Shown one piece after another: positions 3,250 to 18,934 of a stretch of 34,450 bases of DNA (positions are counted from its first letter, which is position 1; each line of letters starts with the position of its first letter). The stretch is from Hydrogenobaculum sp. Lineage in GTDB: Bacteria > Aquificota > Aquificia > Aquificales > Aquificaceae. The position numbers and the translations under genes were made by a program. The notes beneath the pieces were generated by a model. It was not told where the DNA came from, made no database searches, and saw only the letters and a program-made list of their open reading frames with translations. The stretch lies in contig PNJC01000148.1 in assembly GCA_002878215.1 (NCBI GenBank), forward strand, positions 1 through 34,450, given 5' to 3'.

Positions 3250-3969
3250 TTAGGCTTTATATTGCAAAGCTTCAAATAGAAGTTTTACTTCGTTTGGTTT
3301 TAAATGTCTCCACTTACCTTTTGGTAGATTGCCAAGAGAAATAGGGCCTATTGCTGTTCTTATAAGATGTTTTACAGGTTTTTTAAAAGCTAAGAAAAAC
3401 CTTTTTACAAGATGATTTTTCCCTTCATGAAATGTTATTTCTATGTTTGCACCATTTTTAAACCTTTTTAAAAGCTTTAAGCTATCAGGCTTTACAAACC
3501 CATCTTCTAGCTTTATGCCCCTTTTCATCTTTTCCAATATCTCGTCGTCTATCTCACCTTTTACAGTAGCTATATATACTTTTGGTAGCTTGTATCTTGG
3601 ATGTATTATTCTGTTTGCCAATTCCCCGTCGTTGGTAAGTATCAACAGCCCTTCTACGTTGTAATCTAACCTTCCTGCTGGATAAACTCTAACACCAACA
3701 TCTTTTATTAGTTCTTTTATAGTTGGTTTTTCTTCCTTTTCCCCCAAAGATGTAAGATAGCAGCATGGTTTATTTAGCATTATGTAGACAGGTTTCTGAG
3801 CTTTTACTATGCGTCCTTTAAACTCTACTATATCTTCATCTGGGTCTATAGTAGTACCAAGCTCTTTTACTATCTTGTTGTTTACCTTAACGTAGCCTTT
3901 TTCTATATACTCATCTGCCTTTCTTCTAGAACACACCCCAGCCAAAGATAAAAATCTATTTAACCTCAT
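3250..3969 (-). CDS. rluB: 23S rRNA pseudouridine synthase, RluB/RsuA family
   Basis: S4 domain [66 protein letters not shown]. Confidence 0.92.
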
Positions 3970-15453: not shown

Positions 15454-16815
15454 TCACATCGCCCTTTTGAAAAGTTGGTCTAAAAGCTCTATAGCCATAT
15501 CTATTTCTTCATCTGTAATTTCTAAAGACGGTGCAAGAGTAAAGACGTTTTTATAATATCCACCTACATCCAACACTAACCCATATTTCTTACCTTTGTA
15601 ATCAAGGTCTCCTTTTAGCCCTTCTTCTAATATCCTATCTGTTAGAGCTTTTGAAGGTGTAAAACCATCGCTTTCACATACTTCTATTCTAAGAGCAAGC
15701 CCTATACCATCTACATCTCCTATATTTTTGTATTTTTTCTTTAGGCTTTTAAGACCTTCTAAAAACTTTTTACCTTTTTGAGCCACTATGCTTTCATAAT
15801 CTTTTTCTTCTATTATGTTCATGACTTCTACTCCGGCTCTTACTCCTATAGGATTTGAAGAAAATGTGGAATGAGTAGAGCCAGCTGGCCATATTTTGGG
15901 ATTTATCAGATCTTCTTTTGCCCAAAGACCTGATAAAGGATTCATGCCGTTTGTTAAAGATTTACCAAACACAATGATGTCTGGCTTCACATCGTAATGC
16001 TCTATGCTCCACAATTTACCAGTTCTGTAAAATCCCATCTGAATTTCATCGTCTACCAAAAGTATGTTGGCTTGGTCTAGGATTTTCTTCAACCTTTTAA
16101 AGTATTCTGGTGGGGCTTTTACATAACCGCCGGTGCCTTGAATGGGCTCTATATAAAAGGCTGCATATTCACATTCGTTGGTTTTTGGATTGTATATAGA
16201 GTAATATTCTGATTCAAAAAGCTTTTCAAACTCTTTTACACAATAATAATCACAGCTATCCAAGTTCTTTCCGTAAGGACATCTAAAACAGTAAGGAAAT
16301 GGTATAAAAAGCGCCCTATCGCCAAAATGCCCAAACCTTTCTCTATACCTATAGCTAGATGTAATAGCAGTAGCACCTAAAGTCCTGCCGTGGTATCCTC
16401 CCATAAAAGCAAAGTTTAAATTTTTCTTTTTGTAATTTCTCACAAGCTTTAAGCTATCTTCTATGGCTTGAGAACCACCTACGTTGAAATGCACTCTACC
16501 TTTTAGATTAAATCTTTTTAAATTAGCGTCTACTATCTTCTTTGATAAGACTACTTTTTCCTCAAAAAGAAATTGAGAGGCAAGCTGTCCCATTTTGTCC
16601 ATCTGGTCTTTTATAGCGTTGTTTATACGCTCGTTTTTGTATCCGAAATTACAAGCGCTGTACCACATTTGTAAATCTAAATATGGTTTGTTTTCCTCGT
16701 CGTAAAGGTAAGACCCTTCAGAAGCTTTGAAAATTTTTGGAGGGTTTAGATAATGTACCGTATCACCCCAAGAGCAAACTTCGCTTTCTATCGATAGTAT
16801 TTCCTCTTTCTGCAT
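15454..16815 (-). CDS. Class III (PLP) aminotransferase
   Basis: PLP Lys region IIVFGKSLTNGMNPLSG; VGGSQAIEDSLKLVR; YIEPIQGTGGY; ATG 16815 has SD GGAG. Confidence 0.9.
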   Translation of the reverse strand: MQKEEILSIESEVCSWGDTVHYLNPPKIFKASEGSYLYDEENKPYLDLQMWYSACNFGYKNERINNAIKDQMDKMGQLASQFLFEEKVVLSKKIVDANLKRFNLKGRVHFNVGGSQAIEDSLKLVRNYKKKNLNFAFMGGYHGRTLGATAITSSYRYRERFGHFGDRALFIPFPYCFRCPYGKNLDSCDYYCVKEFEKLFESEYYSIYNPKTNECEYAAFYIEPIQGTGGYVKAPPEYFKRLKKILDQANILLVDDEIQMGFYRTGKLWSIEHYDVKPDIIVFGKSLTNGMNPLSGLWAKEDLINPKIWPAGSTHSTFSSNPIGVRAGVEVMNIIEEKDYESIVAQKGKKFLEGLKSLKKKYKNIGDVDGIGLALRIEVCESDGFTPSKALTDRILEEGLKGDLDYKGKKYGLVLDVGGYYKNVFTLAPSLEITDEEIDMAIELLDQLFKRAM

Positions 16816-17455
16816 GCAATTTCTCCAATACAAAAGGTAATTGATTTATTATATCTTCAAAATATGAAAAGCTAGTGAAGTGACTAACGTTTTGAGCTTT
16901 TAGAAAGTTTAACAGTTTGCTTTTAGCAAATATAAAATCAGCGTTTTTGGAGGCGCAGAAATCAGACATACCATCTCCTATATATATAGCCTTACCATCT
17001 TTTAGTTTTTGCACAAGATGGCATTTACAAACACCAAGCTGGCAGTCTTTTTGTGAATATCTGTAAAGGGTTTTAAATTTTTTGTTTATAAAGTAAAGGT
17101 TGTTGGCATATATTCCATCTATTTTTTCCAAATGATCTTTTAATATTTTTTTTATAAAAAGCCTAAAACCATCGCTTAAAATGTATACTTTAGCGTTAAA
17201 ATTTGATTTTACATAATCCAAAAATTTTATGAAGCTTTTATCTATATGTACGTTGGATAGAAAATTCTCCAGCTGATCTTTTGTTATGTTTACCAAAGAC
17301 ATTTGAATATCAAGGCATTCTTTTGAAGTTATCTTGCCCTCTTTCCACAGCTTCTCAGCTTCTAACCATTCTTTAGATGCGAAGCGCTCCAAGAGCGCAT
17401 CTACAGTATCTTGGAGCGTTATAGTGCCATCAAAATCACAAAAAAACGTTGTTAT
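16763..17455 (-). CDS. HAD-superfamily phosphatase (MtnX/SerB-like), probable AUA start
   Basis: Minus strand from ATA 17455: (I)TTFFCDFDGTITLQDTVDALLERFASKEWLEAEKLW...; HAD motif I lies upstream of the track start (TTG 17392); later motifs ILSDGF and YIGDGMSDFCASKNADFIFA. Confidence 0.78.
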   Translation of the reverse strand: MTTFFCDFDGTITLQDTVDALLERFASKEWLEAEKLWKEGKITSKECLDIQMSLVNITKDQLENFLSNVHIDKSFIKFLDYVKSNFNAKVYILSDGFRLFIKKILKDHLEKIDGIYANNLYFINKKFKTLYRYSQKDCQLGVCKCHLVQKLKDGKAIYIGDGMSDFCASKNADFIFAKSKLLNFLKAQNVSHFTSFSYFEDIINQLPFVLEKLHAERGNTIDRKRSLLLG

Positions 17456-17958
17456 TTTAGACTCTCCAGAGCTTTTAATACGTCGTTATAGTCTGGTTCT
17501 GAGGTGATTTCTGGTACTAGTTGGAAATATTTTATAGTGCCGTCTTTGCCAACTATAAATATTGCCCTAGCCAAAAGCCCTTGTAATGGACCTTCCGCTA
17601 TAAGTATGCCGTAAGCTTTGCCAAAATCTTTGTTCCTAAAATCTGAAGCTACAGCTATGTTTTCCACTCCTTCAGTGGAACAGTATCTTTTTGATGCAAA
17701 AGGTAAATCCATAGATACAACCGTGGTATCTACATCTTGCATTGAGCCAACAGCTTCGTTAAACTTACGGGTTTCGGTAGCGCAAACAGGCGTGTCCAAG
17801 GACGGAACAGCTATTATAAGCTGTACTTTGTCTTTGGCTCCACCTATCTTTTTGGTGGATAAATCTGTTAGCACGACTTCTACTTCAGGAGCCTTGTCTC
17901 CTACTTTTATATCACCTGAAAGTGATACATCGTTTCCTTTTAATTTGGTTTTGAGCAT
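17452..17958 (-). CDS. tpx: Thiol peroxidase (Tpx-type peroxiredoxin)
   Basis: VPSLDTPVCATETRKFNEA; LPFASKRYCSTEGVENIAVASDFRNKDFGKAYG; SD AGGAGG. Confidence 0.95.
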   Translation of the reverse strand: MLKTKLKGNDVSLSGDIKVGDKAPEVEVVLTDLSTKKIGGAKDKVQLIIAVPSLDTPVCATETRKFNEAVGSMQDVDTTVVSMDLPFASKRYCSTEGVENIAVASDFRNKDFGKAYGILIAEGPLQGLLARAIFIVGKDGTIKYFQLVPEITSEPDYNDVLKALESLK

Positions 17959-18034: not shown

Positions 18035-18934
18035 TTAAAAAAGCGTTTTTTGAATTCTTTTTCCAGAAGATTTTTCTTTAAATATTGTATTTAAATCCTT
18101 TATTAAGCTTTTCATATTAAAAGCCATAAAAAACTCTTCTACCTTTTGTAGGTCTATATTGTAAGATATTTTTAAATCCTCTAAATGTATATTTATCATA
18201 TTTAGTATCTCTTCTGTGTTTAATTTAATAAGCTTGTAAGCCAACTCTAAATCTTCTTTTGAAGCTTCTTTAAAAGTTTTTTGTATTTCTTCCCAGTGAT
18301 TTAATATGTTTTCTATAGAACCGTATTTTTCTAAAAGCTCAACAGCCTTTTTAGGACCAACACCTTTTATGCCTTTTATATTGTCTACGCTATCTCCGAT
18401 AAGGGCAAGGTAATCTGCCAGCTTTGAAGGTGGTACGCCAAATTTCTCTATTACCGCCTCTTCGTCAAAGACCTTGTTGGTGATAGGGTTTATTACAATT
18501 ATTCTTTTGTCTTCCACAAGTTGCATTAAATCTTTGTCTGGTGTGTAAATTGTAAGATTCTTGTTCCATTCTTTTGATTTATAAGCAATGTAGGCTATTA
18601 TATCATCCGCTTCTAAACCTTCTTTTTCTAAAAGCCTTATACCAAGCAAATTTATCGCTTGTTTTACAAGGGGTATTTGTGAAACAAGCTCGTTTGGTGT
18701 TTCTTTTCTAGTAGCCTTATACTCTTTGTATATTTTATCTCTAACTGTCGGAGCAGGTAAATCAAAAGCTATAGCAAAGTACTCTGGTTTTTTAGTTTTT
18801 AGTATAGAAAATACGGCTCTTATAAATCCATAAAAAGCACCAGTCTCTAAGCCATTTTCAGTTTTTAAAGAAGGTAAAGCATAATAACTTCTATACAAAA
18901 ATGCAGAGCCATCTAAAACGTAGATTGTATCCAT
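18035..18934 (-). CDS. Stand-alone 5'-3' exonuclease (PolA N-domain/FEN family)
   Basis: MDTIYVLDGSAFLYRSYYALP; GLEADDIIAYIAYKS; TPDKDLMQLV; GDSVDNIKGIKGVGPKKAVELLEKYGSIENI; no polymerase domain. Confidence 0.94.
   Translation of the reverse strand: MDTIYVLDGSAFLYRSYYALPSLKTENGLETGAFYGFIRAVFSILKTKKPEYFAIAFDLPAPTVRDKIYKEYKATRKETPNELVSQIPLVKQAINLLGIRLLEKEGLEADDIIAYIAYKSKEWNKNLTIYTPDKDLMQLVEDKRIIVINPITNKVFDEEAVIEKFGVPPSKLADYLALIGDSVDNIKGIKGVGPKKAVELLEKYGSIENILNHWEEIQKTFKEASKEDLELAYKLIKLNTEEILNMINIHLEDLKISYNIDLQKVEEFFMAFNMKSLIKDLNTIFKEKSSGKRIQKTLF

Follow-up and report, generated by a model that had tools for sequence, protein, structure and literature searches.

A conserved AUA codon overlapping the tpx stop codon as the probable start of a HAD phosphatase gene in Hydrogenobaculum

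Genes at the locus

The window analysed here is a stretch of 34,450 nucleotides of DNA from a Hydrogenobaculum sp., of a genus living in hot springs (contig PNJC01000148.1), in which tpx, a gene for a HAD phosphatase and a gene for a class-III aminotransferase form a tightly packed run on the minus strand (Table 1). The start of the aminotransferase gene overlaps the 3' end of the HAD gene by about 50 bases (window 15454-16845, 16763-16833), and the aminotransferase is 91% identical to that of Sulfurihydrogenibium across the aligned part. Just upstream of tpx lies a stand-alone open frame of 299 aa (window 18035-18934) that is 5'-3' exonuclease-like and, judged from its sequence alone, of the DNA polymerase I N-terminal type.

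The HAD protein belongs to TIGR01489, against which it scores 113.3 bits (cut-off 81.55); it scores 50 bits against PF12710, and its closest solved structure is PDB 2fea (E 1e-20). It has in common with the MtnX-like HAD-IB phosphatases (TIGR01489; PDB 2fea) the fold family, motif I (DFDGT) and motif IV (GDGxSD), but at 91 bits against the 303.2 required by the MtnX equivalog TIGR03333 it falls below the curated cut-off for true MtnX.

Table 1. Features of the tpx-HAD junction and the adjoining genes, in window positions
Feature	Position	Strand	Remarks
Proposed start codon of the HAD phosphatase, ATA	17453..17455	-	in 5 Hydrogenobaculum species; no in-frame canonical start upstream
tpx stop codon, TAA	17452..17454	-	T and A common to the ATA start (ATAA)
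Shine-Dalgarno GGAGAG, within the C-terminal codons of tpx	17462..17467	-	GGAG kept in five species
MtnX-like HAD-IB phosphatase CDS, 230 aa if read from ATA	16763..17455	-	TIGR01489, PF12710, PDB 2fea
HAD catalytic motif I, DFDGT (nucleophile Asp)	17423..17437	-	absent from the product if the start is TTG 17392
TTG, first in-frame canonical start, rejected	17390..17392	-	CTG in UBA2488
T7 tract, HAD codons 4-6	17440..17446	-	unconserved: TTCTTTG in UBA2488
tpx, thiol peroxidase, upstream partner in the overlap	17452..17958	-	NF001808 197.7 bits (cut-off 123)
Class-III aminotransferase, next gene	15454..16815	-	PF00202 252 bits; start inside the HAD 3' end

The junction and its reading frames

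The tpx frame ends CTG GAG AGT CTA AAA TAA (stop 17454-17452). Read in the HAD frame, which is -1 relative to tpx, the junction runs GGA GAG TCT AAA ATA ACA ACG TTT TTT TGT GAT TTT GAT GGC ACT, and the ATA and the TAA overlap on one strand as ATAA (17455-17452). The first-pass annotation had held that motif I lies upstream of every in-frame ATG, GTG or TTG and that the frame is open back to a TAA with only ATA and ATT as candidate starts, and each of these features is present in the sequence. The frame is open just from 17485, following an in-frame TAA at 17488-17486; the codons preceding the ATA are CGA CGT ATT AAA AGC TCT GGA GAG TCT AAA, and the ATT and the ATA are the sole AUN codons ahead of motif I. 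No in-frame ATG, GTG or TTG precedes motif I, the first being the TTG at 17392-17390, beyond DFDGT. From the tpx stop to the T7 tract, the remaining frames hold no canonical start either. Translated from the ATA, the product is predicted to begin (M)TTFFCDFDGTITLQDTVDALLER.

Upstream of the ATA, GGAG stands at a distance of 8 nt and GGAGAG at 6 nt. The duplex predicted between this site and the 16S tail, at -6.9 kcal/mol (range -6.4 to -6.9), is close to the median for ATG starts backed by homology (-6.75; 96 starts), internal codons having a median of -2.9; the description of this Shine-Dalgarno (SD) sequence as a good one thus holds. Likewise, the ATGA stop-start overlaps that the ATAA was said to mirror are real, with four such junctions elsewhere in the window (stops at 3968, 10987, 27070 and 30224).

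Conservation and alternative readings of the junction

The comparison set comprised five species, namely the window's genome and four relatives of its own genus, which include the MAG UBA2488 (G001), the complete genome G002, G003 and Hydrogenobaculum sp. KMB_Bin01 (G004). Alignment of the locus supports the AUA start as first suggested, given that all five species carry ATA ACA AC(A/G) behind GGAG, and that a canonical start in frame before the ATA is found in none of them. The most divergent species, UBA2488, is the most informative. Its junction reads TTTTGGAGAACATCCGATAACAACATTCTTTGTAGATTTTGATGG, and there tpx ends in ATC CGA TAA as against CTA AAA TAA, a break interrupts the T tract, and TTG 17392 aligns with a CTG, so that conservation extends to the ATA and its SD but not to the TTG, the T7 tract or the slippery A-AAA-TAA. 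Part of the conservation of the ATA is imposed by the stop codon of tpx. An A-to-G change would give an ordinary AUGA and leave Tpx unchanged; it is absent in all five species.

The segment between the ATA and the first canonical start evolves as coding sequence. Among four of the species, HAD codons 2-21 show synonymous differences only, and against UBA2488 there are 7.8-8.8 synonymous differences over 13.8 sites and 4.2 non-synonymous differences over 46.2 sites. Such strong purifying selection argues that the segment is a translated part of the HAD protein and is selected as such, which bears directly on the TTG at 17392, the first canonical start and the one that a gene caller would choose. 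Initiation there would leave a protein of 209 aa lacking motif I; alternatively, the gene would be in decay. As the first-pass annotation pointed out, the nucleophile Asp would then be lost; further, the TIGR01489 score is 113 bits for the full-length frame and 86 for the TTG-started one, purifying selection acts on the codons ahead of the TTG, which specify a conserved HAD motif, and the remainder of the protein is conserved, with its motifs intact, in all relatives. Since it removes motif I and is a CTG in the fifth species, the TTG is rejected as a start, and this reading of the gene is highly improbable.

An in-frame canonical start precedes motif I in 78 of the 80 wider homologous loci, the two exceptions being the two Hydrogenobaculum loci. 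The Sulfurihydrogenibium orthologues, 61-63% identical (45% in a second group), have a TTG at the aligned position behind an SD of their own (AAAAGGAGTTTTTAA TTG CTT ACA TTT TTT TGT), and they are stand-alone genes that tpx does not precede. A scan of viral contigs returned no relatives.

A programmed -1 frameshift would account for the same open frame in another way, with tRNA-Lys slipping from AAA to the overlapping AAA before a slow UAA, a Tpx-HAD fusion as the product and the ATA read as Ile. A mono-slippery A-AAA-TAA does stand at the end of tpx, in the right -1 frame, in four species, but the fifth has C-CGA-TAA with the ATA kept, and frameshifting is disfavoured for that reason. Moreover, neither a heptamer nor a stimulator is seen at the site, the open -1 stretch upstream varies from 33 nt to 93 nt across species, and the orthologues in Sulfurihydrogenibium stand alone with SD and TTG; we regard a frameshift as quite improbable. 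Initiation at some other non-canonical codon, either the ATT at 17479-17477 or the ACG/ACA at codon 3, is very unlikely. ATT is known to serve as a start in infC and pcnB of E. coli and is in frame in this genome, but it is ACT in G002-G004, and codon 3 alternates between ACG and ACA among species; the sole conserved near-cognate codon at SD spacing is the ATA. Finally, a miscall of A for G, or an indel in the T7 tract, might mask an ordinary start, and one of the assemblies is a 153-contig draft. Such errors are exceedingly unlikely, as independent assemblies of five species agree, two of them single-contig and one without the T7 tract. Transcriptional slippage or an indel at that tract was dismissed as well, the tract being unconserved.

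Proposed initiation at the AUA codon

In light of these comparisons, the HAD protein is very probably translated from the AUA at 17455-17453, plausibly with SD-aided coupling to tpx termination and with an output that is low beside that of Tpx. Ribosomes ending tpx at the UAA would sit over the AUAA junction, where the internal SD GGAGAG would keep the small subunit; ordinary fMet-tRNA would then bind the AUA with two strong base pairs, mismatched at the third position, and the product, M-T-T-F-F-C-D-F-D-G-T..., would be made in small amounts compared with Tpx. We infer from the sequence, in other words, real initiation at the AUA, coupled to tpx termination, with the weak start keeping expression low. 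Of the coupled initiation first proposed, the overlap of the two codons as ATAA stands, as does the SD inside tpx, and together they make coupling to tpx termination plausible; the coupling itself we infer from that arrangement.

AUA is normally a poor start codon and is selected against by IF3. The absence of an A-to-G change from five species, together with the weak TTG used in Sulfurihydrogenibium, of the sister family, is a hint that expression is being held low deliberately, although a preference for TAA in tpx could be an alternative reason for the missing change. A dedicated AUA-reading initiator tRNA was considered and ruled out: in G002, ARAGORN finds three CAU tRNAs, the usual number, but no UAU anticodon and no special initiator tRNA.

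Further AUA starts in the genus

A genome-wide enrichment of SD sequences at ATA over other codon types was not detectable, and because this all-codon test is too noisy, a strict criterion alone was used, namely that the homology with the other genome sets in five or more residues ahead of the first ATG, GTG or TTG. The complete genome G002 was surveyed in this way against 1.2 Mb (of 1.84 Mb) of Sulfurihydrogenibium G048, and the G002 cases were then filtered by inspection for mobile-element fragments, antisense-rRNA frames and cases with few identities. From 870 G002 genes four were left, HAD and three others, each of them with an ATA preceded by an SD. Given that ATA makes up only about 4% of codons in the surveyed regions (441 in roughly 11,000), four of four is unlikely by chance, small as the sample is; the pattern concerns less than 1% of testable genes. 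Among the cases discarded, hemA had been flagged at an ATA and was dropped for an ATG four codons upstream, and transposase-like, AAA-ATPase-like and other repeated fragments, like the antisense-rRNA frames, were judged by inspection to be pseudogenes or artefacts.

The first of the three is an MBL-fold gene (G002 855842-856624; GAAAGGAGATTTTCT ATA GAA ATA TAT TTT GTA GGC ACG), with the ATA in all five species. Its orthologue in Sulfurihydrogenibium (G048 780274-781080) has no canonical start and an ATT or ATA behind AAGGAGG, and the gene possibly retains, on this comparison, an old non-canonical start in two families. Across the five Hydrogenobaculum species the start of this hydrolase reads ATA GAA/GAG/CAG ATA, with no canonical start. 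The second encodes a C39-like peptidase (G002 917342-917857; AAAGAGGTGATTATAAG ATA AAA CG), with the ATA in four of five species and canonical starts in UBA2488. The N-terminus of this peptidase is signal-peptide-like, and in the four species the ATA stands behind GAGGTGAT. The third is a CheW gene (G002 1253420-1253881; AAGGAGGATTTT ATA GCA), in which the codon is ATG behind the same SD in G000, G003 and G004. The two forms are a natural ATG/ATA pair, and the ATA in G002 could be a lesion in one strain; between such close relatives the pair offers a natural gauge of the cost of AUA.

At least two genes in the genus beyond HAD thus appear, from their sequences, to use an AUA start likewise. 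That Hydrogenobaculum recurrently uses a working AUA, in at least three conserved genes (HAD, MBL-fold and C39-like) and in the ATG-to-ATA switch of CheW, and including a coupled AUAA junction, is a conclusion toward which we lean with moderate confidence. If true, it would mean a looser start-codon set in Hydrogenobaculum than annotation assumes.

The reverse survey, of 787 G048 genes, flagged the MBL-fold orthologue and recovered infC with its ATT, a good control indicating that the method works. An alanine racemase-like frame (G048 215608-216708) has its first canonical start 28 aligned residues inside the homology, with an ATT as candidate start.

Relation to known systems

Non-AUG starts of this kind are established elsewhere. 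In E. coli, infC and pcnB start with AUU, and infC is autoregulated by IF3. The HAD gene likewise has a non-AUG AUN start, which in the E. coli genes limits expression, but those genes have AUU and no overlap whereas HAD has AUA at an overlap. Initiation at AUA as such is already known: in S. aureus it has been shown experimentally for infC, ccpN and citZ, with AUA and AUU starts working at about 10-30% of AUG (PMC13009471). Those genes, too, have AUA with an SD close upstream, and just as the non-canonical start of ccpN is conserved with B. subtilis, the HAD ATA is conserved in its genus (PMC13009471). However, no stop-start overlap is described for the S. aureus genes, their extended SDs are stronger than that of HAD, which is moderate and lies in upstream coding sequence, and initiation was measured there whereas here it is deduced (PMC13009471).

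The junction itself is close to a familiar type. In a study of 720 genomes, no group surpassed the Aquificae in the proportion of overlapping gene pairs, strong SDs serving there for reinitiation, and the ATGA or TGATG termination-reinitiation pairs described there, very common in Aquificae, likewise combine a four-base junction, an internal SD and co-directional neighbours (PMC6728339). The HAD junction differs from these known overlaps in being ATAA, a TAA stop with an AUA start; AUAA is not named in the passages on stop-start overlaps consulted in the same study, where only ATGA or TGATG appear (PMC6728339). Sensitivity to IF3 is shared in E. coli by reinitiation and by initiation at non-canonical codons, and in reinitiation it is eased by an SD (PMC2268962). 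A genome-wide re-annotation of Aquificales weighed ATT and CTG as alternative starts and left ATA unnamed (PMC4227106). Within the open-access literature, the AUAA overlap and the recurrence of AUA in one genus therefore look new.

This has implications for annotation. Gene callers normally allow ATG, GTG and TTG only, and proteins with AUA starts are therefore likely to be truncated or missed; a truncated call of the HAD phosphatase would lose the catalytic residue. If confirmed, the junction would establish that a TAA stop can join a four-base stop-start overlap, and it would provide a natural case in which to study how IF3 start fidelity is relaxed in reinitiation and in a thermophile. As for IF3 itself, infC starts with ATT in Sulfurihydrogenibium (G048 699440-699955) and with TTG in all five Hydrogenobaculum genomes. 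A non-canonical infC was thus set aside as a cause or companion of the AUA starts, and the TTG implies that the very genus with AUA starts may lack the classic feedback of IF3 through its own start codon.
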